Shown one piece after another: positions 5,324-51,606 of a stretch of 64,000 nt of DNA. Numbering within the stretch: position 1 is the stretch's first letter; every line of letters begins with the position of its first letter. The DNA is from Gammaproteobacteria bacterium (lineage in GTDB: Bacteria; Pseudomonadota; Gammaproteobacteria; Eutrophobiales; Eutrophobiaceae). The position numbers and the translations under genes were made by a program. The stretch spans positions 930,001 through 994,000 of the forward strand of contig SCUJ01000006.1 of NCBI GenBank assembly GCA_004297165.1, written 5' to 3'. The notes below the pieces were generated by a model. It had not been told where the DNA came from and did not search any database. It worked only from the letters and a program-made list of their open reading frames with translations.

Positions 5324-5905
5324 ATGGAATTACATCGTATCGGTGTGAAATGGTTCGCGGACGAGCGCGCGCCCTTGAATCTGCTGGACCTCATCCCCGT
5401 ATTTCATCGCTGGATCCAGGACCATGTCCTCGACAACCTCTTGATCGACGTTGCCGAATACACTCACATGCATCACGGCCCCGGGGTGTTGATCATCGCC
5501 CACGAGGGCAACTACGGTTATGACGAGACCCACGGCGAGCGCGGTCTGGCGTATTACAGCAAACAACCGATGCCGGAGACGGACCTCGCCGCGCGCCTGG
5601 CAACGGTCGCCCGCAAGGGACTGGAGGCCTGCATCTGCTTTACCCGCGAGGCGAATCTGGGAGCGCAGGTGAGCTTTCCCTGCAATCGGCTGGAGGTATT
5701 CACAAACGACCGGCTGCTCGCGCCCAACACCGATGCAGCGTGGGAAGCCTTCGCCCCGGCCGTGCGCGCCCTGGCCGCGCGGCTGTTCCCCGGTCAGGTA
5801 TACAAGATCGAGCGCCGCAGCGATGACCCGCGCGAGCGACTGGCCGCGATCATCCACGCGGAACAGGCGCCAGGTCCCGAGGCTTTGCTCGCGCGTCTGA
5901 CTTAA
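5324..5905 (+). CDS. Conserved protein linked to siroheme reductase, function unknown
   Basis: 193 residues with AGGAGC 8 nt before the ATG, 20 nt after the reductase stop; cotranscription is likely. No signal peptide or membrane segment. Recognisable stretches are 'VLIIAHEGNYGYDETHGERGLAY' in part (a His/Tyr-rich block near residues 56-78) and 'FPCNRLEVFTNDRL' near 118-131. I recall similar proteins next to nitrite/sulfite reductases in other proteobacteria, but no biochemical role can be named. A part in electron transfer to, or maturation of, the reductase is only a guess from position. Confidence 0.7.
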   Translation: MELHRIGVKWFADERAPLNLLDLIPVFHRWIQDHVLDNLLIDVAEYTHMHHGPGVLIIAHEGNYGYDETHGERGLAYYSKQPMPETDLAARLATVARKGLEACICFTREANLGAQVSFPCNRLEVFTNDRLLAPNTDAAWEAFAPAVRALAARLFPGQVYKIERRSDDPRERLAAIIHAEQAPGPEALLARLT

Positions 5906-5920
5906 GGATCTAACAGGCTG

Positions 5921-7084
5921 CTAAGGCGCCGGCAGGATGCCGACCCGATCTCCCGCATACGTCCCGATCCAGATCTGCCCCTCAACCTTGAGGGCAGAGC
6001 TCGCGCCCTGCATCGCCGCATCGGCGCCAACCCCGGTCACTCGGGTCGCGGTCATGGTCTCCGGATCGATATCGAAGACTGACCAACCGCTGCCGCAGGG
6101 TTGCTTTGGACACTCCGCCGGCGGCATGTGATCTCCGCCGGTGGTGTAGATCCTGCCCTCCGCCGTCCAGTGCAGGTTGTCCGGCGTGACGGCCAGAGTG
6201 GCGGCGGTACGCGCCATCGGCGTGACGCTGCGGTCGAAGCGCACCACCTCGTTAGTGCCGAACGCGGCCACATACAGATAATGATCATCGGGCGAGACCA
6301 GGATGCCATTGGGGCCGGAGAGTTGCGTGCCTTCGATCTCCGCGGGTTCCCCCTTGCCCGGATGCCACTCCCACACGCCGCCGGTGATGGTCTGTGATCT
6401 GACCTTGTTGAAGCCTTCCGCATCAGTCGGATCCATGAACTTCGTCGTCACGAAGCCGCCGTCATTCAGGATCGCCACGCTGTTCGGCCAGACGGTATTC
6501 GGCAACGCGACACAACCGATCCAGCGGATGACCGGTTTGTCCGCGCCGGCATCGATCTGGAATGCCTCAATCGCCTCACGATCGCCGTGCGAGGTGACAT
6601 AGAGAAGGTATTGTCCCTGAGTCTCCTCGCGCAGGGCGAGTCCGTGGGCTGAGAAGTTGTTGATATTGAGCGGTGCCGGGCAGTCGGGGAAGCGCGTCAT
6701 GTCTTGTTCAAAAACTGGCTGTGCGGCTGGAAACAGTACTTCCCATTCACGCGTCCGGTGATTGATCAGATAGAGATGCCCCGGCGTATCCGTGCCCCAG
6801 CGATCCCCGTTCATCCCGGAGGCGATGAGCCACTCGGTGTCGCCCACCTGAACGATATCTTCGGCGTTTTGCGGACCGCAGACAAATTGCAGATCGCCCG
6901 AGGGTACGCAATCCGCGGCCCCGCCAGCCGGGGTTGCAACCGGTGCAGTAGCGGGCGTGGGTGCTGGCGCCACAGCAGGCGTGGCCGGTGGCGTTACGGC
7001 TGCCTCCTGGGCACTCTCACCGCAGGCCCCGAGCAACAACATGCCGATGATCATAATCACTACTACCAGCGTATTTCTCAACAT
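5921..7084 (-). CDS. Lipoprotein with SMP-30/strictosidine-synthase-like beta-propeller
   Basis: 387 residues from the ATG at 7084, chosen because GAGGTG lies 5-6 nt upstream; an in-frame ATG at 7105 overlaps the previous stop and has no such site. The lipobox LLGAC gives a lipidated cysteine near residue 20, followed by an Ala/Pro/Thr linker (about 28-57). The rest is propeller-like with repeated motifs such as 'GPNGILVSPDDHYLYVAAF' (about 250-268), the calcium-binding pattern of SMP-30/gluconolactonase and strictosidine-synthase-like proteins. It probably sits on the inner leaflet of the outer membrane and hydrolyses a lactone or ester, or only binds one. It follows the response-regulator gene in the same direction. 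Confidence 0.72.
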   Translation of the reverse strand: MLRNTLVVVIMIIGMLLLGACGESAQEAAVTPPATPAVAPAPTPATAPVATPAGGAADCVPSGDLQFVCGPQNAEDIVQVGDTEWLIASGMNGDRWGTDTPGHLYLINHRTREWEVLFPAAQPVFEQDMTRFPDCPAPLNINNFSAHGLALREETQGQYLLYVTSHGDREAIEAFQIDAGADKPVIRWIGCVALPNTVWPNSVAILNDGGFVTTKFMDPTDAEGFNKVRSQTITGGVWEWHPGKGEPAEIEGTQLSGPNGILVSPDDHYLYVAAFGTNEVVRFDRSVTPMARTAATLAVTPDNLHWTAEGRIYTTGGDHMPPAECPKQPCGSGWSVFDIDPETMTATRVTGVGADAAMQGASSALKVEGQIWIGTYAGDRVGILPAP

Positions 7085-7104
7085 GACGTCACCTCGCTTA
7101 ACCA

Positions 7105-7992
7105 TTAAATACCCAGATCGATATGCTCATCGGAGATGTCCACACCGACCAGCAGGATGTTCTTTTCCCTGGTAAGACCATACACCAGTTTCGCAGTCTC
7201 GCGTATCAGTATAGGCATGCCTTCCTTGGTTTGTTTATGCAACTGCCAGCGATAGGAGGAATCGGGATGCAGCGTCGCCTCCCCCAGATATTCCTGAAAC
7301 CGCTCCCGATCGCCGGGGGCATAAAGCTCGCTGATATCCCGCCCTACGAGTTCATTGCGCTGGTAGCCGAGGACGCGTGCGCCATAACGGTTGACCGACT
7401 GGATTTCGCCCATGATGTTCAGGCTGAAATACATCGCCGGCGTGTTGTCATAGAGCACCTTGTAGCGCTTCTCGCTCTCGATCATCGCAATCTCGGCGGC
7501 TACCCGGTGGTCGATCTCCTTTTTCATGGAGATCCGGTCCAGCTCCAGCTTGCTCCTGGTCTGCACGTATTCCTGGCGCAGATCGGATTGCTTCACCTTC
7601 AGCGCCGTGTTCATGGATTTCAACGAGAGTTGCGTCTCGATGCGCGCGGCCAGGATCTCGATATTCGTGGACTTGATCAGATAATCGTTCGCCCCGTTGC
7701 CAAGCGCCTTGATCATGTCATCGGTCTCGTCGCTGCTGGTCAGCATCAACACCGGCAGTTCCAGGGCGGAATAATCGGCACGGATCTTTTGCAGGACCTC
7801 GTTGCCGGACATCCCGGGCATGTTCAGGTCGAGCAGGATCAGATCGACCAGATTGCCTCTGAGCTGAAAGAGCGCCTCGCTGCCGGAGCCGGCGGCGAGG
7901 ACCTCGTAACCGCGCGACTTCACCTGCAACGTCAGGGTCTTGCGATAGGTATTGTCATCATCGACGATGAGGATCGTTGCCTTTTGTGTCAT
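7105..7992 (-). CDS. Response regulator with C-terminal PAS domain
   Basis: 295 residues from the ATG at 7992 (GGGAG 6-7 nt upstream). Receiver domain about residues 5-120: acidic pair VDDD, phosphoacceptor Asp in 'LILLDLNMPGMSGNE', Thr/Ser in 'MLTSSDE', Lys in 'YLIKS'. A coiled-coil-like linker (about 130-170) leads to a PAS domain (about 175-285: 'YKVLYDNTPAMYFSLNIMG', 'ELVGRDISELYAPGDRERF'). No output enzyme or DNA-binding domain follows, so it is likely an intermediate in a phosphorelay or works through protein contact. No histidine kinase is adjacent. Its TAA stop overlaps the nearest upstream ATG of the lipoprotein gene. Confidence 0.87.
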   Translation of the reverse strand: MTQKATILIVDDDNTYRKTLTLQVKSRGYEVLAAGSGSEALFQLRGNLVDLILLDLNMPGMSGNEVLQKIRADYSALELPVLMLTSSDETDDMIKALGNGANDYLIKSTNIEILAARIETQLSLKSMNTALKVKQSDLRQEYVQTRSKLELDRISMKKEIDHRVAAEIAMIESEKRYKVLYDNTPAMYFSLNIMGEIQSVNRYGARVLGYQRNELVGRDISELYAPGDRERFQEYLGEATLHPDSSYRWQLHKQTKEGMPILIRETAKLVYGLTREKNILLVGVDISDEHIDLGI

Positions 7993-8081
7993 GGGGTGCT
8001 CCCGTGGCAGGAAATGCCTGTTTACCCGATATCCCAAGGCGGGGTCAAGTCGATCATTGGCAAAATTATCAATAGCGTGAC

Positions 8082-8106
8082 AGGGCGATCACAAGGATCG
8101 CCCCTA
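8082..8106. repeat. Short REP-like palindrome (GGGCGATC / GATCGCCC)
   Basis: Perfect 8-bp inverted arms at 8083-8090 and 8096-8103 with a 5-nt loop, followed by CCTAC. This form is a common intergenic palindrome in proteobacteria. It lies between the divergent response regulator and aminotransferase genes and has no T-tract, so it is not an obvious terminator. Confidence 0.6.
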
Positions 8107-8122
8107 CAAACGACCTATCCCC

Positions 8123-8150
8123 TAATGACCAATGACTAATGACTAATGCC
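8123..8150. repeat. Heptamer tandem repeat (TAATGAC-like) spanning a start codon
   Basis: Four 7-bp units run in tandem: TAATGAC, CAATGAC, TAATGAC, TAATGCC. Each carries an ATG in a different frame relative to its neighbours, at 8125, 8132, 8139 and 8146. The aminotransferase frame uses the ATG at 8139. No Shine-Dalgarno sequence is visible before it. Confidence 0.6.
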
Positions 8151-9341
8151 CAACGAGAAGACTATCATGCCTCCCTCGAAATTGCCGGAGCGCCCGACTT
8201 GAAGCTCGTATCGAAACTGCCGGATGTCGGCACCACCATTTTTACCGTGATGTCCAGGCTCGCGAACGAATGCGGGGCCATCAACCTGTCGCAGGGTTTT
8301 CCGGATTTCGCCTGCCCCGAGGCGCTGGTCGACGAGGTCACGCGCGCCATGCGGGAAGGCCACAATCAGTATCCGCCCATGGCCGGGATCGAGTCGTTGC
8401 GCCAGGCCATTGCCCGGAAGATCGAGGCGCTTTACGGGGTCCGTGTCGATCCCGAAACCGAAGTGACAGTGGTCTCCGGCGCCACCGAGGGCTTGTACAA
8501 CGCCATCACCGCGGCGATCCGGCCGGGGGACGAGGCCATCATCTTCGATCCGGCCTACGATTCCTACGACCCTGTGATCCGGCTAGCCGGCGGCAGCACG
8601 CGCCGCATCGCCATGCGTTACCCGGAATATGCAATCGACTGGGACGAGGTCGAGGATAGCGTCTCGCCCCGCACCCGTTTGATCATCGTCAATAGCCCAC
8701 ACAATCCCAGCGGGGCGATCCTGCGCGCGGCGGATATGCAGGCATTGAGCGGGATCGCGAATCGCCATGACCTCTGCATCATCAGCGATGAGGTCTACGA
8801 ACACATCATCTTTGATGGCGAAGAACATCAGAGCGTGTTGCGTTATCCGGCGCTGCGGGAACGGGCCTTCGCCATCTTCTCCTTCGGCAAGACCTATCAC
8901 GCCACCGGCTGGAAGGTCGGTTACTGCGTGGCCCCGCCCGCGCTCACCGCGGAATACCGCAAGATCCATCAGTTCAACACCTTCACCACCTGCACGCCCA
9001 TGCAGCACGCGCTGGCGCGGTTCATGGAGAACAGCGCGCACTATCTGGAGCTGCCGGCCTTCTACCAGGCCAAACGGGATCATCTGCGTGAGTCCTTGCG
9101 GGATTCGCGATTGCGCGCCCTGCCCTGTTCCGGAACCTATTTCCAGTTGTTCGATTACAGCGCGATCAGCGACAAAGGGGATTATGACTTCGCGCAACGC
9201 CTGACCCGCGAACATGGCGTCGCCGTCATCCCGGTATCGGTCTTTCACGGCGATCACACCGACCACAAGGTGATCCGCGTCTGTTTCGCGAAACACGAGG
9301 CGACGCTCGATCGCGCCGCGGCGATCCTGCGCCGCTTATAA
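8139..9341 (+). CDS. PLP-dependent aminotransferase, methionine aminotransferase (YbdL) type
   Basis: 400 residues, fold type I aminotransferase. Typical motifs: 'INLSQGFPDFACPE' (YbdL/kynurenine aminotransferase signature), 'VVSGATEGLYNAI', 'NSPHNPSGAIL' (substrate carboxylate and PLP contact), 'IISDEVYEHIIFDG' with the PLP-binding Asp/Tyr, and the Schiff-base lysine in 'SFGKTYHATGWKVGY' (about Lys251). It would transfer the amino group of methionine or aromatic amino acids to a 2-oxo acid in the cytoplasm. The start lies in a heptamer repeat and has no clear ribosome-binding site, so the first few residues are less certain. The stop is followed almost at once by rlmKL, which suggests one transcript. 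Confidence 0.87.
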   Translation: MTNAQREDYHASLEIAGAPDLKLVSKLPDVGTTIFTVMSRLANECGAINLSQGFPDFACPEALVDEVTRAMREGHNQYPPMAGIESLRQAIARKIEALYGVRVDPETEVTVVSGATEGLYNAITAAIRPGDEAIIFDPAYDSYDPVIRLAGGSTRRIAMRYPEYAIDWDEVEDSVSPRTRLIIVNSPHNPSGAILRAADMQALSGIANRHDLCIISDEVYEHIIFDGEEHQSVLRYPALRERAFAIFSFGKTYHATGWKVGYCVAPPALTAEYRKIHQFNTFTTCTPMQHALARFMENSAHYLELPAFYQAKRDHLRESLRDSRLRALPCSGTYFQLFDYSAISDKGDYDFAQRLTREHGVAVIPVSVFHGDHTDHKVIRVCFAKHEATLDRAAAILRRL

Positions 9342-43862: not shown

Positions 43863-44297
43863 TTATTCGACATACCCTTCCACTCTGCCGGCCCGATCCG
43901 TGACAGTGCCATCCTCATCGATATACCCCTGCACGCGTCCGGCCCTATCCGTGATAGTGCCATCCTCATTGACATACCCCTTCACGCGACCATACCGATC
44001 CGTGATGGTCCCATTGGATTCAATATACCCTTCCGAATATCCAGTTCTATCCGTTATGGCGCCATCGGATTCAATGTAAGCCTTAATCCGGCCACTCCTG
44101 TCGCTTACCGCACCTTCCGCGGGTTTTCGGGGCCGATCTGGGCCCCCATTCTCAACACTTCTCGTCTCAATCGCGAGAGTATCTCGATACGCGGGCACAC
44201 AGGCCAGTTGCAACGATAACAGCAATAATGGAATCGTCCACCGCAAGGACTGAACGGCGGCTTTATTCGAAGATAATCTGCTGGATCCAATTATCAT
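43863..44297 (-). CDS. Lipoprotein with five 17-residue tandem repeats
   Basis: 144 residues from ATG 44297 (the frame extends to 44336). Lipobox LQLAC (about residues 29-33). The C-terminal half is five perfect-register repeats of 17 residues with consensus G-x-(I/V)-(T/S)-D-R-x-G-R-x-x-(G/A)-Y-(I/V)-x-x-(D/N), ending GYVE-stop. The motif is like short beta-hairpin repeats and the DNA repeat unit is 51 bp. Likely outer-membrane or periplasm anchored. Copy number may vary by recombination. No function known. Confidence 0.72.
   Translation of the reverse strand: MIIGSSRLSSNKAAVQSLRWTIPLLLLSLQLACVPAYRDTLAIETRSVENGGPDRPRKPAEGAVSDRSGRIKAYIESDGAITDRTGYSEGYIESNGTITDRYGRVKGYVNEDGTITDRAGRVQGYIDEDGTVTDRAGRVEGYVE
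43866..44117 (-). repeat. Five-unit 51-bp coding tandem repeat
   Basis: Units share the codons for DR-x-GR and GY(I/V), differing mainly at the third and in a few variable residues (SRIKA, YSEG, RVKG, RVQG, RVEG). It keeps the frame because the unit is divisible by three. Not a CRISPR: unit has no spacer. Confidence 0.7.
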
Positions 44298-44414
44298 AAA
44301 ATTTCCTAGAACCCAGTCTGATGAAGAAGATATCATCCGTCAAGCCAGAGCCAGAACCCTGACATCATTGTTACCATAAGCAATAAAATAACTTAATTTA
44401 GAATACCCTCTCTC

Positions 44415-45551: not shown

Positions 45552-46442
45552 TTACTTGTCTCCCTGGTTTTCCTGGTTTTCCTGGTTTTCCTGATTCCCC
45601 TGATTACCCCTGAAATCCGCCTGCAACAGATGCGTCAGGGTATGCACATACTGCAACTTGCCGTTTTTCAGGCGGAAGAGATGGGTGTCGGGCGCGCCGC
45701 TGCCGCCGTTCGGGCTACCGGCGCCGAAGGTGCAGAAGACCACGACCGCGTTCATCACCTCGTCCACCACGAAGCGGCGGTTGGCGATGTTCACGCCGGC
45801 AGGCACGCCGACCTCGCAACTGTCTTCGGGGGACCCTTTGCCGGTATACGCGCCGCCTTCCACGCGGACGCAGGGGAAACCCCAGGGCACGAGATCGATC
45901 TTCTTTTCGAGGAAGGCATCCAGATAGGCACCGGCGGCGGCGACCAGTTCGCCGCGGGAATCGCGCTGCTCAGCCGGAACGGGACTCCAGTCCTCCGAGG
46001 ACGAATACTTTAGGTAGGCCTCGGCATCGAATAACCAATAACCTGTCGTGGTCCATACGATCTCGATCTCAGCGATCTTGTCGTGGTTGACGCGCAGCCG
46101 CGTTGCAAGGACGTAGGGGTTTTTCTTGTCCGTGACGATCACCTCGGTAAAGGTCTGACAGGTGCTCTCGTCGAACAGGCTGAAGTGATGATCGATCTTC
46201 AGCGCGGTGCTGATCAGGCCGGTCTTGATATCGGCAGGGGCCATGTTCTCGTAATAGCCGAGCCCGGCAGCCGCCAACGGCATACCGGAGACGTCGCCCT
46301 TGGCCTGCGCCTCGAGGTAAAGATCGACCGCGCGCCGCATCCCTCCGCGCGTGCAGGAGATCTCCGACTGCTGCGCCAGGCTGACCCCGGGCGCGAGCAA
46401 CACGCCAGCAAGCACGATCCAGGTAAATTTATTCGGTTTCAT
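45552..46442 (-). CDS. Exported DUF8021-like protein (paralogue of the 56.3-57.2 kb gene)
   Basis: 296 residues. Signal peptide 'VLAGVLLAPGVSLA-QQS'. 'LVAAAGAYLDAFLEKKIDLV' and 'PWGFPCVRVEGGAYTGKG' (about 168-206) lead to 'RRFVVDEVMNAVVVFCTFG', the NTF2-like pattern of DUF8021, and 'THLFRLKNGKLQYVHTLTHL' (about 254-273). The start has leader AAAGGGGGGAG. The C-terminal tail NQGNQENQENQENQGDK is encoded by a 9-bp minisatellite and has no domain role. Periplasmic; function unknown, often near esterase/catabolic genes. Confidence 0.75.
   Translation of the reverse strand: MKPNKFTWIVLAGVLLAPGVSLAQQSEISCTRGGMRRAVDLYLEAQAKGDVSGMPLAAAGLGYYENMAPADIKTGLISTALKIDHHFSLFDESTCQTFTEVIVTDKKNPYVLATRLRVNHDKIAEIEIVWTTTGYWLFDAEAYLKYSSSEDWSPVPAEQRDSRGELVAAAGAYLDAFLEKKIDLVPWGFPCVRVEGGAYTGKGSPEDSCEVGVPAGVNIANRRFVVDEVMNAVVVFCTFGAGSPNGGSGAPDTHLFRLKNGKLQYVHTLTHLLQADFRGNQGNQENQENQENQGDK
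45563..45607. repeat. 9-bp minisatellite at the end of the DUF8021-like gene
   Basis: Five units of about CCTGGTTTT / CCTGATTCC (on the plus strand) encode the NQE repeats of the reverse-strand protein. Unit size of 9 keeps the frame, so length can change without frameshift. Confidence 0.75.
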
Positions 46443-46489: not shown

Positions 46490-47673
46490 TTAAAGTTCAG
46501 GCTTGTTTGGCGTCTCCCTGGCCTCCTGCTCCGCCTGGCGAGCGTCGGCGATCGCCTCGATATTCTCGCGCAACGCCGGATGTTGTTCGAGCAATTTCCA
46601 TAAATCACTGGACTTGAGTTCCAGCAGTTGGCATTGCGTCAACGATACCACGGCCGCCATGCGTTTGCGTTTTCTGAGCAACCCGATCTCGCCAAAAAAT
46701 TCCCCGGCGCCCATATACAGCGGCCGGGGCCGGGTTTCGATCTCGATCCGGCCGGAGACGATGAAATACATGCTGTCGGGGCTTCGCCGATGCGGATGAT
46801 GGCGTGCCTCGGCGGCACCACCAGCGGCGTCAGCAGGGATACGATATCCGCAATCTGGGCGGCATCCAGGCGGGCAAAGAGGGGCACTGATGAGACCATC
46901 TGCCAGTTGACGATAAAATCGTGTTTCTTGACCTCATCGGCGAAGCCGGTGGCGATGACGCCGGTCGGCAGGGCGACCATGCAGATGCCCATGAGCATGG
47001 TGAGGGCCCCGAACAGGCGTCCCATGGCCGTCATCGGGACTGTATCTCCATAACCGGTGGTGGACAATGTGGTGATGGCCCACCACATGGCGTCCGGGAT
47101 GCTGCCGAATTTTTCCGGCTGGATCTGGTGTTCCAGCAGGTACAGGAGGCTGGCCGAAAACAACATGGCGATGCTCATGATCAGCAGCCATGCGGACAAG
47201 GCCCGGCGTTGCGCGACCGTGACCGCCCAGATGATGCTGAGCGCCGGGGAATAACGGGTAAGCTTCAGCAGCCGCAGCAACCGGAACAAGCGCAGGATGC
47301 GCAGATCGATGAGGAAAAAGGCGCTGAGATAAAATGGCGCGAAGGCCAGGAAATCGATGATGGCGATCGGGGACAACATATACCGGAGGCGCCCGCGCAC
47401 CGGGTGGCCGTAACCGCCCGCCTCGTTTACGGTGCAGGACCAGACCCGCAGGACATATTCGATGGTGAAGATGATGACCGAGATGAAATCGAAAGCGAAG
47501 AAATAGTCGCGGTAGGCCTCGTGCAGCGCCGTCTCCGTCTCCATGACGATGGCGATTACATTGGCTGTGATCAAGGCCATCATGAACAAATCGAAGTAAC
47601 GGTAACGGTTGCCCGGGGCCGATACTTCGAGAATTTCGTAGACTGTTCGTTTAATATTTTTGACGGTGCCCAA
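46490..47673 (-). pseudogene. Cyclic-nucleotide-gated K+ channel, frameshifted
   Basis: TTG start at 47673, with AGGAGG 7 nt upstream inside the end of the cyclase gene. Six-helix channel: S1-S4 about 25-135, S4 'DLRILRLFRLLRLLKLTRYS' with Arg/Lys every third residue, selectivity filter 'TLSTTGYGDTVP' (about 202-213), S6, then a cNMP-binding domain. In the run of four C (plus-strand G at 46778-46781) one base is missing, so the frame breaks at IIRIGEA. The next frame resumes at 46771 as MYFIVSGRIEIE and ends 46490. The pocket keeps GEFFGEIGLL and the Arg of KRKRMAAV. A single base restores a 394-residue protein; assembly error or a true lesion are both possible. Confidence 0.82.
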
Positions 47674-47675
47674 TA

Positions 47676-49400
47676 CTATTCCTCCTCAATAAGGCGCGCA
47701 CCCAGCGGGTGAAAGATCCTCACGGCGTCCTGTTTGCCCTTGACCCGGATGACATCGAGTTCCCGGTACTGAAAGCCAGGCGCTTGCCGCATGGTAGCCT
47801 CGCTGACGACGATCGGCACGTGATATTCCTTGGTGACCGATTCGAGCCGCGAGGCGAGGTTGACGCCGTCGCCGATGGCGGTGTAATTCAACCGGTCCTT
47901 GGAGCCCATGTTCCCCACCACGACCCGGCCGGTATGGACCCCGACGCCCATGGCGATCTCCGGCCAGCCCTTGGCCTGAAACACGCTGTTGCTGCGCTCC
48001 AGTTCCTCAATCATCTCCAGGGCGCAGGCCACGGCGCGGTGCGGGTGATCCGGCAACGCCAGCGGCGCGCCGAACAGGGCCATGATGGCGTCGCCTATGT
48101 ATTTGTCCACCACGCCGCCATGCCGGTCGATGACGGCGGTCATCCGGGTCAGGTATTCGTTCAGAAAATCCAGCACTTCTTTCGGCGCGCGATGTTCGCT
48201 CAGGCTGGTGAAGCCGCGCAGATCGGTGAAGAGGACGGTGATCTCCTTCTCCTCGCCCCCCAGTTGCACCTCCGACCGTAGCAGTTCCTCGGCGATCTCG
48301 GGCGACATGACCTTGCCCAGCAGGTTGCGCACCTTGTCCCTTTCGAACAGGCCCTTCCGCATATCGTTGAAGGCCAGCGCCAGTTGTCCGAGTTCGTCCT
48401 GTTGCGTCAGCTCCACTGCGCGGGTGTAATCGCCGCGCTGGATCTCCCGTGCGAATCCGGCCAGGATACGCACCGGGCGGGTGACGCTGCTCGCGATGGC
48501 GGCCCCGCCGAAGATGGACACCAGCAGGGCGACGGCGGAGATGACGATCAGCAGCAGGCGGAGCCGGTAATAGGGCGTCATGGCGATCTCGCGGTCGCGC
48601 TGGAGCATGGCGTAGACGCGCTCGCCGCCGAAGGACTGCAATGACGCGATATAGGTGATGAACCTGGCCGTTCCGGCGCGCAGCTCGTAAAGGGTCTCGG
48701 CAGACCAATCGCCATTGTTTATAACGTCAGCTATCGTCTGACGCTGCGCGGCATCCAGCGTCGTGACCTGGATGGAGCGCGCGCCGGCTTCGGCATACAC
48801 AAGCGAGATCTGCGTCGTGCCTTCCTGCTGCAGGCCGGCGAGGAATTCGCCTTCGATCGCGAACCCGAGCACGATCCACGCCGACGGCACCGGCGTCAGC
48901 AACGGCACGGCGATGATGCTGTAGAGGCGATCCTCGAAACGGATGAAGCCCGAGGCCTCGCCGTTGTCGCTCAGCGCCGCGAGGAAATCGGGGTAAGGAA
49001 ACGGCTGTCCCGCCGCCAGCGCCGGAGTCGGTTCGATCCCGCTGACGGAGAGATAGTTGCCGTCGAGGTCCAGGAGCAGCATCAGATCGGCCCCGATACG
49101 CTGGCGCTGGTTCTGCAAGGCCGTCCCGATGGTGCGGTCGCTGCCCGTGGCGTAGGCGGTTTTGAAGGCGAAGTCGCCGGACAGCAAACGCCCCGCCAGG
49201 ATCAAGGCCTCATTACGGACTCCGATGCCGCTGTTGAACGCCTGCACGGTCGCGAGCAGCGCCTCGCCGATAAGGGCATCCGCATTCCTGGTGTTGGCGA
49301 GGTCGACGAGATAGAGGGAACTGAGCTGGATCGACAACAACAGACCCAGGAAAAAGCTCAGGATCCGGCTGCGGAAGGACTTGAACTGGAAGCGGATCAG
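47676..49400 (-). CDS. Membrane-bound class III adenylate cyclase (CACHE-like sensor, HAMP, CYCc)
   Basis: 574 residues from CTG 49400, which overlaps the upstream stop and has GAGGAG 5 nt before it; no ATG/GTG lies in this frame before 49340 (TTG/CTG codons only), and a membrane helix (about 9-33) would be lost by starting at 49340. Extracytoplasmic domain about 35-275, second helix about 280-304, HAMP about 303-350, catalytic domain about 385-560: metal Asp in 'FTDLRGF' and 'KYIGDAIMALFG', Lys of KYIGD with Thr of NYTAIGD (the pair of bacterial adenylyl cyclases such as CyaB1), Asn/Arg in 'GVNLASRLES'. Makes cAMP in the cytoplasm. Two nt before the channel gene. Confidence 0.87.
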   Translation of the reverse strand: MIRFQFKSFRSRILSFFLGLLLSIQLSSLYLVDLANTRNADALIGEALLATVQAFNSGIGVRNEALILAGRLLSGDFAFKTAYATGSDRTIGTALQNQRQRIGADLMLLLDLDGNYLSVSGIEPTPALAAGQPFPYPDFLAALSDNGEASGFIRFEDRLYSIIAVPLLTPVPSAWIVLGFAIEGEFLAGLQQEGTTQISLVYAEAGARSIQVTTLDAAQRQTIADVINNGDWSAETLYELRAGTARFITYIASLQSFGGERVYAMLQRDREIAMTPYYRLRLLLIVISAVALLVSIFGGAAIASSVTRPVRILAGFAREIQRGDYTRAVELTQQDELGQLALAFNDMRKGLFERDKVRNLLGKVMSPEIAEELLRSEVQLGGEEKEITVLFTDLRGFTSLSEHRAPKEVLDFLNEYLTRMTAVIDRHGGVVDKYIGDAIMALFGAPLALPDHPHRAVACALEMIEELERSNSVFQAKGWPEIAMGVGVHTGRVVVGNMGSKDRLNYTAIGDGVNLASRLESVTKEYHVPIVVSEATMRQAPGFQYRELDVIRVKGKQDAVRIFHPLGARLIEEE

Positions 49401-50050
49401 TACGGCTCCTCTTCGTCGTGGGGTTCCGGCCGCCAGAGATATTCGGGTTTGACCTCCAGGATGAATTCCAGCCGGTTCTCGGTCGCGGCATCGACGCGCC
49501 GCGTCTGATCGGCCGCCCCTTTGATCCCCGGATGCGTGACATGCAGGTCGTAGATACCCGCCGGCAGGTCCTCGATAACGGCCTGTCCGTTCGCGTCGCT
49601 TTTGGCGTGGTAGGGCGTGGCGACGACATATATATAGGCCGCCATCCAGTCATGAATATTGCACCCGACCGTCACGAGGCCCGGTTGATCGAAGGTGATC
49701 GTGTCCGTCGATTCGTGTTCGGAGAGGGGCAGCTCGAACTTTCTGGGGGGCGAGAAGGAATAGACATGGTGACCAATGCCGTCGCGATTCGGGAACATGA
49801 CCGAGGCCCCGACGGGGATCACCGTCACGAACGGCTGAAAGGTCTTGTCTTTCTGCTCGACCTCGTAACGGCTGTCGGTCTTCGGGGCCGGCAGTTCCCG
49901 GTCGGCGAGCAGATAAATCACGGCATCGGTCAGTGAATTGTGATTGGTGTCGTAGACCTGGATCGTCAGGCTGCCGGCAGCGAGCGGTTGATTCAAGGCA
50001 AGGCAGAGGCCAAGCCAGGCAAGGATGAGTGTTCGCGAGCGTCGGGGCAT
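49397..50050 (-). CDS. Periplasmic cupredoxin-domain protein (methylamine-utilisation-like)
   Basis: 217 residues, signal peptide ending LAA-GSL. Carbohydrate-binding-like beta domain about 25-75, then a type 1 copper-like site: 'FPNRDGIGHHVYSFS' (His, about 90-100), 'GLVTVGCNIHDWMAAYIYVV' (Cys, His, Met in C-x2-H-x2-M, about 130-150), then a second beta domain with carboxypeptidase-regulatory-like 'GQAVIEDLPAGIYDLHVTHP' (about 160-180). All four cupredoxin ligands (H, C, H, M) are present. It would bind copper in the periplasm and could feed the cyclase sensor. Starts within the OMP stop (TGATG) and overlaps the cyclase. Confidence 0.85.
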   Translation of the reverse strand: MPRRSRTLILAWLGLCLALNQPLAAGSLTIQVYDTNHNSLTDAVIYLLADRELPAPKTDSRYEVEQKDKTFQPFVTVIPVGASVMFPNRDGIGHHVYSFSPPRKFELPLSEHESTDTITFDQPGLVTVGCNIHDWMAAYIYVVATPYHAKSDANGQAVIEDLPAGIYDLHVTHPGIKGAADQTRRVDAATENRLEFILEVKPEYLWRPEPHDEEEPY

Positions 50051-51270
50051 CAGTTCTGGAACCTGTATTGCACGTTAAACAACAATTGGTGGATCAATTC
50101 GTCGCCGTCCCCTGTCACTATACGCCGTTCCTCGCGTTCGCTGTCCAGCAACAACCACTCCGCTCCCACCCGCCAGCGCGGCGAGTAGGCGTACTGCCAT
50201 GACAACATCAGACTGCGACCGGATTCCTCACCCATATTTGACGGCGTCTGATCCTCGTCATCGACCGCGAAACCCTCCACCCTTGCGCTGAATGAATGCT
50301 GGTCGAACTCCTTATTTATCAGGAAATAAACGGATTCGAAATCGGAATCGCAGACGCTCAAGACCACCGGGGCCACCGCCCTGGTATTCCCGCGCATGGC
50401 CTGCGCCGCCAGCAACCAGCCGTGCGGTAGTCGCCATTCCGCGGACACCTGCTGGAACCACGTCCGCCAGCCGATCTGACCCCCGCGCGCGTGACCCGTC
50501 TCCGCCAGATTGTCATAGTGGAATAACTGCAATTCGAAACGGTCCTGCCAGGTCCAGGCCCCGGATAAATAATATCCGGGCCGGTCGTCATTTTCATAAA
50601 ACGGGAAGACCTCGCGTTTCACTCCGGGGACCAGCGTGGGTTCGCGCAGCGGACTGAACAGGCCGGTCTGCCGGTCATGCGCGGCCCAGCCCCGATAATT
50701 GAGGACCGTGCCGCTGGCATCGTTATAGCCGAACACGGCGCCGATCAGTTTCCAACTGTGTTCAGACTGCCGGAACCGGCCCGGCCATTCCAGACTGACC
50801 TCGGCCCCGATCGTCCGCAGGTCCTCGCCGATCCAGGAATTGATCACCGATGGCGTGATGCCAAAACGGCTGCTCCAGGCCACGCCGGTGTTTTCGAGCG
50901 AAAGCGGCAGATGAAACGCCCCCAGTTTGGCCCGCCACCGCAGCGGTCCTTGCGGCGCCGGACGGTAAACGAAATAGGTTTCAATCAACTCCGCGTCCAG
51001 CCCGTCATCCAGGTAATAGGTGGAGAGGGTCCGGAGCCAGAGGGTATCGGTAAGGTGATAATCGACATGCAGACCAACCTTGCCGAGTTGCAGCGGGAAG
51101 GTCGATTCGTCGAAGCGGGTCTTGGAAAATCCGCCATCCAGCCAGGATTGATCGGCGCTGTTGTAAAACGCCTGGGCCTCAACGAGCCCGCGAAACGACA
51201 ACCGGTCCTGCGCCCACGCTGACTGCCAGAGGCCGGCGAGACAGAACGCTACGAGGAGACAGGGTTTCAT
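50050..51270 (-). CDS. Outer-membrane beta-barrel (porin-like) protein
   Basis: 406 residues from ATG 51270 (GTG 51276 also in frame). Signal peptide 'LLVAFCLAGLWQSAWA-QDR'. The rest alternates hydrophobic and polar residues in short beta-strands and ends with 'YSPRWRVGAEWLLLDSEREE' ... 'LLFNVQYRFQN', terminal aromatic Phe-Gln-Asn, as in barrels. First gene of the four-gene operon; in other organisms a similar OMP / cupredoxin / sensor-cyclase trio occurs. Likely lets a ligand or metal into the periplasm, or is structural. Confidence 0.75.
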   Translation of the reverse strand: MKPCLLVAFCLAGLWQSAWAQDRLSFRGLVEAQAFYNSADQSWLDGGFSKTRFDESTFPLQLGKVGLHVDYHLTDTLWLRTLSTYYLDDGLDAELIETYFVYRPAPQGPLRWRAKLGAFHLPLSLENTGVAWSSRFGITPSVINSWIGEDLRTIGAEVSLEWPGRFRQSEHSWKLIGAVFGYNDASGTVLNYRGWAAHDRQTGLFSPLREPTLVPGVKREVFPFYENDDRPGYYLSGAWTWQDRFELQLFHYDNLAETGHARGGQIGWRTWFQQVSAEWRLPHGWLLAAQAMRGNTRAVAPVVLSVCDSDFESVYFLINKEFDQHSFSARVEGFAVDDEDQTPSNMGEESGRSLMLSWQYAYSPRWRVGAEWLLLDSEREERRIVTGDGDELIHQLLFNVQYRFQN

Positions 51271-51606
51271 GCGCACACCGATTCCATCCAGATTCGTTTC
51301 TTGAATTCGCTCCCAGTGATGACTCTAGGATAGCAATTTTACCTTCGGTCTGCTAACCATGTTCATGCTGTCGCAGCATTAAGGAAACACGGTGAAGTTG
51401 TTAGCATTGAGCCTGTCGAAATGTGCGCTCGCAAAATCAAGGGCTTCGACAAGCTCAGCCCGAACGATGGTACTTATTCAGTGTTTCCTTAACCATCCCC
51501 TTGGCTTCCGCCGGCCGCAGCAGGTATCCTGACCGTCAGCCACGCTTCAGGCTTACGCCGTACTCACCGTATACTCATCGCTCAATGCTTTTGGAGAAAA
51601 ACTAAT
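51271..51606. other. Divergent intergenic region carrying a MITE-like element
   Basis: 336 bp between the porin operon (leftward) and the PQQ/heme dehydrogenase (rightward). It contains the element at 51379-51492 and both promoters, which I cannot place with confidence. The dehydrogenase start has GGAG about 11 nt upstream. Confidence 0.5.
51379..51492. mobile_element. MITE-like element with perfect 12-bp terminal inverted repeats
   Basis: TTAAGGAAACAC (51379-51390) and GTGTTTCCTTAA (51481-51492) are perfect inverted ends of a 114-bp stretch. Inside are GAGCCTGTCGAA and TTCGACAAGCTC, an inner near-palindrome of a repeat class widespread in proteobacteria. No ORF and no clear target-site duplication. 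A nonautonomous element or composite of two REP-like sequences. Confidence 0.65.

Follow-up and report, generated by a model that had tools for sequence, protein, structure and literature searches.

Does one operon hold a complete sensory circuit that leads from a periplasmic copper or redox signal via cyclic AMP (cAMP) to a flux of K+? This question is raised by four genes in a stretch of 64,000 nucleotides (nt), here called the window, from a Gammaproteobacteria bacterium (GenBank assembly GCA_004297165.1, 3.5 Mb in 13 contigs; contig SCUJ01000006.1, positions 930,001 to 994,000). A sequence-only reading of the window had seen an outer-membrane barrel protein, a cupredoxin, a membrane adenylyl cyclase and a cAMP-gated K+ channel packed as an operon, and had proposed that they form such a circuit. 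The packing is indeed as described: all four genes run leftward from 51276 to 46490 on the minus strand, separated by overlaps or a 2-nt gap (Table 1), and the cupredoxin gene shares one base with the barrel stop codon. The locus is, however, two things, a three-gene sensor module and an added K+ channel. We consider it probable that it encodes a trans-envelope sensor with cAMP output, behind whose cyclase a channel was added in this genome.

Table 1. Features of the locus, in positions of the window.
Feature	Position	Strand	Basis or remark
Outer-membrane beta-barrel-type protein, exported	50050..51276	(-)	start GTG 51276 or ATG 51270; operon's first gene
Amicyanin-type cupredoxin, exported, with C-terminal carboxypeptidase-regulatory-like stretch	49397..50050	(-)	open reading frame (ORF), weak profile match, structure model
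Membrane-bound class III adenylyl cyclase with HAMP and a sensor region that is of dCache_3 type in relatives	47676..49400	(-)	Pfam, residues; CTG start at 49400 predicted
K+ channel, six-helix, TTGYGD, Arg-rich S4, C-terminal cyclic-nucleotide-binding domain (cNBD), frame-split	46490..47673	(-)	Pfam, alignment, tree
Channel frame break, approximate place	46772..46785	(-)	both window fragments aligned with intact cNBD channels
Shine-Dalgarno-like GAGGAGG of the channel, within the end of the cyclase gene	47681..47687	(-)	read from the sequence
ORF of unassigned family with signal-peptide-like start, putative fifth gene	45552..46442	(-)	47 nt past the channel

The sensor module is carried by its conservation. 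For the comparison we used 80 loci from genome contigs, the best 80 of 546 confirmed relatives of the cupredoxin, so that close relatives are over-represented, plus 12 places besides that of the window in 53 genomes of the family, fetched as 12 regions including a second copy in the own genome. Three of the family regions duplicate contig loci; with the window, and with the duplicates removed by hand from 93 rows, 90 distinct loci remain. In 79 of them a same-strand sensor gene is found within 2.5 kb of the cupredoxin gene; L052, L108, L118 and L126 were counted as positive on overlapping ORFs. The output of the sensor, typed by profile or motif, is exchangeable: we found an adenylyl-type cyclase in 40 loci, a GGDEF-EAL protein in 29, a protein kinase in 4 (a label given by a motif rule, which Pfam confirmed for L026 with HAMP and Pkinase), another type in 6 and no sensor in 11, while one further locus, L274, has a histidine-kinase output. 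In the reverse direction, 369 genomes of the class were searched using only the sensor, which hit 23 places spread over 21 genomes. Outside the own genome, 18 of the 21 sensor-chosen places have a cupredoxin within 0.9 kb, two of them divergently oriented; none was found nearby in L265, L272 and L279. The own genome carries its second copy 0.13 Mb away, consisting of a dCache_3-HAMP-GGDEF-EAL protein, a barrel-type protein and a cupredoxin. Both the exchange of outputs and this paralogue of the cyclic di-GMP (c-di-GMP) type go beyond what the sequence-only reading had proposed.

According to the record labels, the module is spread over Gamma-, Beta-, Alpha- and Deltaproteobacteria, Verrucomicrobia, Nitrospirae, Nitrospinota, Rokuibacteriota and Riflebacteria; a DNA-level search of E. 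coli genomes gave no match. Annotated members stand at NCBI as a 'methylamine utilization protein', the name given to relatives of the cupredoxin, beside an 'EAL domain-containing protein' and a 'DUF3034 family protein', and in the one annotated module stretch inspected no methylamine genes were found by name. In the open-access literature, with most subscription papers outside that scope, no paper on the module was found among the titles and starts of abstracts listed. Cupredoxin and sensor are a conserved pair, usually accompanied by a barrel-type gene, and together with the cyclase the copper-type and outer-membrane-type proteins apparently make up a widespread, undescribed envelope sensor. 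Because the input stays constant while the outputs are exchanged, the cupredoxin, and usually the barrel, would serve the sensor.

The cupredoxin of the window has the H, C, H and M ligands that had been read from the sequence. These are H94, C130, H133 and M136 in a cupredoxin fold, and their C-x2-H-x2-M arrangement is the amicyanin spacing. The profile match of 31.3 bits lies slightly below the cut-off of 32.3 and the match to amicyanin is weak; the structure model reaches a pLDDT of 90.3 and its Foldseek matches are cupredoxins. Residues and model point to a putative type 1 copper protein of the amicyanin-like kind. In 27 independent relatives (9 from family loci and 18 from sensor-chosen loci, none reached via the scan peptide) H94, C130 and H133 are each kept in 27 and M136 in 26. 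In the sensor-chosen locus L282 the Met ligand is replaced, by Asn in the alignment. All 63 aligned cupredoxins share the ligands as well (the window and 62 of 66 candidates; the other four are fragments, pieces at contig ends or a second ORF), a count that is uninformative for C130 to M136 because GCNIHDWM, present in 80/80 of the loci chosen with it, was itself one of the scan patterns. We dropped the supposedly invariant loop C-N-I-H-D-W-M as evidence for docking, since the argument is circular and the loop varies outside the ligands in the 27 independent relatives. A docking face is thus not proven by the loop, and our estimate for the sensor is based on gene linkage. As a side observation, a small exported protein that by reading is NTF2/SnoaL-like stands directly before the cupredoxin in L067, L083, L095, L101 and L106.

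The barrel-type protein of the window has no Pfam match at an E-value of 1; the barrel of its relative L049 has a weak match to Porin_O_P (0.028). Relatives found by phmmer adjoin cupredoxin and sensor in L022, L023, L024 and L274. By a strict C-terminal rule, a barrel-type neighbour is present in 49 of the 90 loci, against a background of 83 passing ORFs among 893 of like length, which is a rough control as it compares loci with ORFs. Neither the barrel of the window itself nor the DUF3034 protein of L089 is caught by this rule.

In the cyclase, Pfam finds Guanylate_cyc (5.2e-29) and HAMP (1.4e-10), and the adenylyl-type Lys/Thr pair that had been noticed earlier is indeed present as Lys432 and Thr506, along with the metal, Asn and Arg residues expected of a class III enzyme. 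Across 36 aligned cyclases (window plus 35 candidates) the metal Asp pair and the transition-state Asn and Arg occur in 36/36 each, and the purine-selecting positions hold Lys in 33/36 and Thr or Ser in 34/36. With its catalytic residues complete, the window enzyme is predicted to be an adenylyl-type class III cyclase; its closest solved relatives are of the Cya2/CyaC type. Pfam assigns dCache_3 to the sensors of L049, L078, L053, L021 and L089 and does not report it at 0.001 for the window sensor; a fold search with the whole cyclase returned catalytic-domain matches only, none of which informs on the sensor. The frame is open upstream of the first listed start, TTG 49340, and translation probably begins at a CTG at 49400 (49398-49400) that overlaps the cupredoxin stop, a start favoured because L024, L053 and L070 show the same 4-nt overlap. 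In L026 a single protein (5818-8418) that adjoins the cupredoxin combines HAMP, a cyclase-like stretch (by reading; none by Pfam) and a Ser/Thr kinase domain.

The fourth gene is different in kind. Translation from its TTG start at 47673, 2 nt past the cyclase stop and with GAGGAGG 7 nt upstream, gives a six-helix core with the K+ filter TTGYGD (Ion_trans, 2.2e-38), and the closest solved relative is MloK1 (4e-40). The cNBD is present as well (cNMP_binding, 7.7e-12), with FFGEIGLL...R-M-A-A, including FGE and the phosphate-cassette Arg, in the alignment. The channel had been read from the sequence with both TTGYGD and cNBD; these stand and the channel is MloK1-like, but pore and cNBD lie in different frames. 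The pore ORF (46639-47673) is the channel's own sequence to about residue 299, relatives no longer match from residue 300, and most of the cNBD is encoded by 46490-46771 in another frame. Alignment with intact relatives places a one-base break immediately before the conserved MYFIVSG stretch and reveals no second break in the cNBD part. As assembled, the reading frame is not continuous from pore to cNBD, and the break goes back to a recent loss or to an assembly error. From its sequence we predict an MloK1-like K+ channel of the cAMP-gated type.

Is such a channel regularly placed beside a cyclase? Within the 53 family genomes a close match occurs in the own genome alone, the next one being 38% identical. 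L022, L023 and L024, which among the cyclase-type loci are the three closest relatives, lack the channel. A channel match at 1e-20 exists in 71 of the 369 class genomes, at 77 places. We examined 37 of the 76 non-window places with 1.5 to ~6 kb on each side: phmmer detected a cNBD in L173 and L174 and not in the other 35, and a class III cyclase stands beside the channel in 0/37. Querying 398 genomes of the phylum with L173 yielded 26 places that match pore and cNBD, taken with up to ~5 kb on each side, and phmmer found the cNBD in 25 of them. In one of these, L229 (5367-7686), a class III cyclase lies 181 nt upstream of the channel on the same strand, and this channel is the MloK1 orthologue, matching across all 355 residues (4e-216). 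In four other genomes of the genus group of L229 the cyclase neighbour was not found. Plasmid searches returned Kv-like relatives (97 records) and cyclic-nucleotide-gated channels, mainly from Rhizobium (178 records); neither of two records inspected has a cyclase within 5 kb. Channel-cyclase adjacency elsewhere therefore amounts to 1/30 (the 26 phylum places, L173, L174 and the two plasmid loci). The earlier statement that such channels are rarely placed with their own cyclase holds, but there is a precedent, the MloK1 gene itself.

A tree of 69 channel cores contains a branch (support 99/91) that separates 41 channels lacking a cNBD from 28 rows, namely 26 with a cNBD, the unscored L234 and the window channel. 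By highest identity (50%) and shortest tree paths, the window channel is closest to same-class channels without a cNBD, which weakens a simple transfer story. Two candidate counterparts in other loci were rejected. The K+ channel beside the module in L062 runs in the opposite direction and its tail reads RCK-like, not cNBD, and the motif-rule candidate in L089 is a DUF3034 protein.

Several points weigh against the reading of a sensor with an added channel. The channel is absent from the 89 other cupredoxin loci and from all 21 sensor-chosen places of other genomes. It may be dead or truncated in view of its frame break, and cAMP has other possible targets because the own genome holds 15 other cNBD matches, all in open frames of at least 212 aa. 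On the sensor side, the 11 cupredoxin loci in which no sensor was found include several near contig ends, and L067 is among them through the script choosing another ORF, a GGDEF-EAL sensor being actually visible there. The barrel is not a single family either, as DUF3034, OMP_b-brl-like, Porin_5-like and unassigned barrels all occur, and Trp135 is kept in just 13 of the 27 independent cupredoxins. A conserved four-gene operon is rejected, with the channel in 1 of 90 loci. The refuting observation that the sequence-only reading had named, a channel-cyclase co-occurrence that is not conserved, has been made and counts against the channel half. Compared with that reading, the sensory half of the proposed circuit is now stronger and more general, while the channel half is weaker.

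The strongest competing explanation is that barrel, cupredoxin and cyclase alone form the module, that the channel is an uninvolved, decaying neighbour, and that cAMP acts on other cNBD proteins. The occurrence of the channel in a single cupredoxin locus, there with a frameshift, and the 15 further cNBD matches fit this explanation, as does the one same-genus genome (76% complete), which has no channel match at E 0.001. Against it stand the start 2 nt past the cyclase with a ribosome site of its own and a cNBD that is still well conserved beyond the break. With 0/37 other class channel places beside a class III cyclase, the tight placing would moreover be a coincidence. We regard an uninvolved channel as a serious possibility, though less probable than an added one.

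The sensor with an added channel could work as follows. The outer-membrane barrel-type protein would pass or present a signal to the periplasm, where the cupredoxin may switch its state between copper-loaded and empty or between oxidised and reduced. It would then bind and act on the dCache_3-type domain of the membrane cyclase, HAMP would relay the change, and the cyclase dimer would raise or lower its cAMP output. In relatives the same input may drive GGDEF-EAL, histidine kinase or Ser/Thr kinase outputs. Since in this genome an MloK1-like channel of the cAMP-gated type was added behind a membrane cyclase predicted to make cAMP, K+ flux could open beside the sensor, provided that living cells make an intact channel. 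The conserved pairing of cupredoxin and sensor, usually with a barrel, gives good grounds for a periplasmic input to the cyclase, and this anatomy speaks strongly for the step from signal to cAMP. In this half the original idea is supported, whereas the step from cAMP to K+ flux is based on this one genome.

Copper or redox is a plausible signal, with copper, oxygen, nitric oxide (NO) and the redox state of a carrier all being candidates. The input may also not be copper itself: the cupredoxin could relay electrons or report O2 or NO, with a truncated haemoglobin as partner in some relatives. Amicyanin-type ligand spacing is of the electron-transfer type. Of 114 locus rows scanned, 17 have a truncated haemoglobin gene inside the operon or close to it, and the protein sequences inspected begin like a signal peptide; in an annotated Caballeronia plasmid the gene stands between DUF3034 and cupredoxin. 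This hints at a redox or gas signal. No haemoglobin match was found in the window locus or 96 other rows, however, and in three of the 17 (L026, L027 and L031) the gene is on the opposite strand, so we hold this explanation as tentative. An example of such a haemoglobin gene is found at 3992-4432 of L283. About equally doubtful is the most far-reaching version of our proposal, in which the one operon leads from periplasmic copper or redox through cAMP to K+ conductance, and cupredoxin and dCache_3 provide a general copper, redox or gas input for cAMP, c-di-GMP, histidine-kinase and Ser/Thr-kinase outputs. A Pycsar-like phage defence pair of a pyrimidine cyclic nucleotide cyclase and a cNBD membrane effector is very improbable: PycC models of PADLOC do match the catalytic domain (best 3.4e-29) and the cyclase adjoins a membrane protein with a cNBD, but the cyclase has the adenylyl-type Lys/Thr pair, PADLOC recognised no effector in the pore ORF of the channel and the sensor family frequently carries GGDEF-EAL instead of a cyclase.

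Further along the strand, the putative fifth gene encodes a protein that has no Pfam match at E 1, and the ORF 43863-44336 (-) contains short-motif near-repeats of the ITDRxGRVxGYVxxDGT type.

If the module works as proposed, a blue-copper-type protein would be a receptor part, beyond its role as electron carrier, and would feed four or more types of output across many phyla. This would also provide a handle on the 'methylamine utilization protein', on DUF3034 and on the signal sensed by the GGDEF-EAL group. The channel, if alive, would offer a natural cyclase-to-channel circuit for testing what cAMP-gated K+ channels do in bacteria.

Among known systems, YfiBNR combines an outer-membrane part, a periplasmic part and a membrane diguanylate cyclase with a periplasmic sensor and HAMP. 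The window locus resembles it in this three-layer logic. It differs in that its proteins have no YfiR or OmpA-type Pfam domain at 0.001, its partner is a cupredoxin and its predicted output is of the cAMP type. HmsC/HmsD of Yersinia, as described in a review on c-di-GMP sensing (PMC8846402), provide a case in which a redox-linked protein of the periplasm acts on a nucleotide cyclase in the membrane. HmsC differs in working with cysteine pairs and changing abundance, not with a copper site, and the system serves c-di-GMP only; the review mentions neither copper nor cupredoxin. With MloK1 (Mll3241) the channel shares the six-helix core, the TTGYGD-type filter and the C-terminal cNBD, and one MloK1-bearing genome has the adjacent class III cyclase of L229; that cyclase differs from ours by having no transmembrane sensor domain by Pfam and no cupredoxin found nearby. 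MmaK, a prokaryotic cyclic-nucleotide-gated K+ channel, is likened by its published description alone (PMC6218482); the window channel stands apart by its Arg-rich S4 and split frame. Finally, class III cyclases of the Cya2/CyaC type are alike in fold and residues, and the window cyclase is set apart from them by its dCache_3-HAMP-type input and its cupredoxin neighbour.

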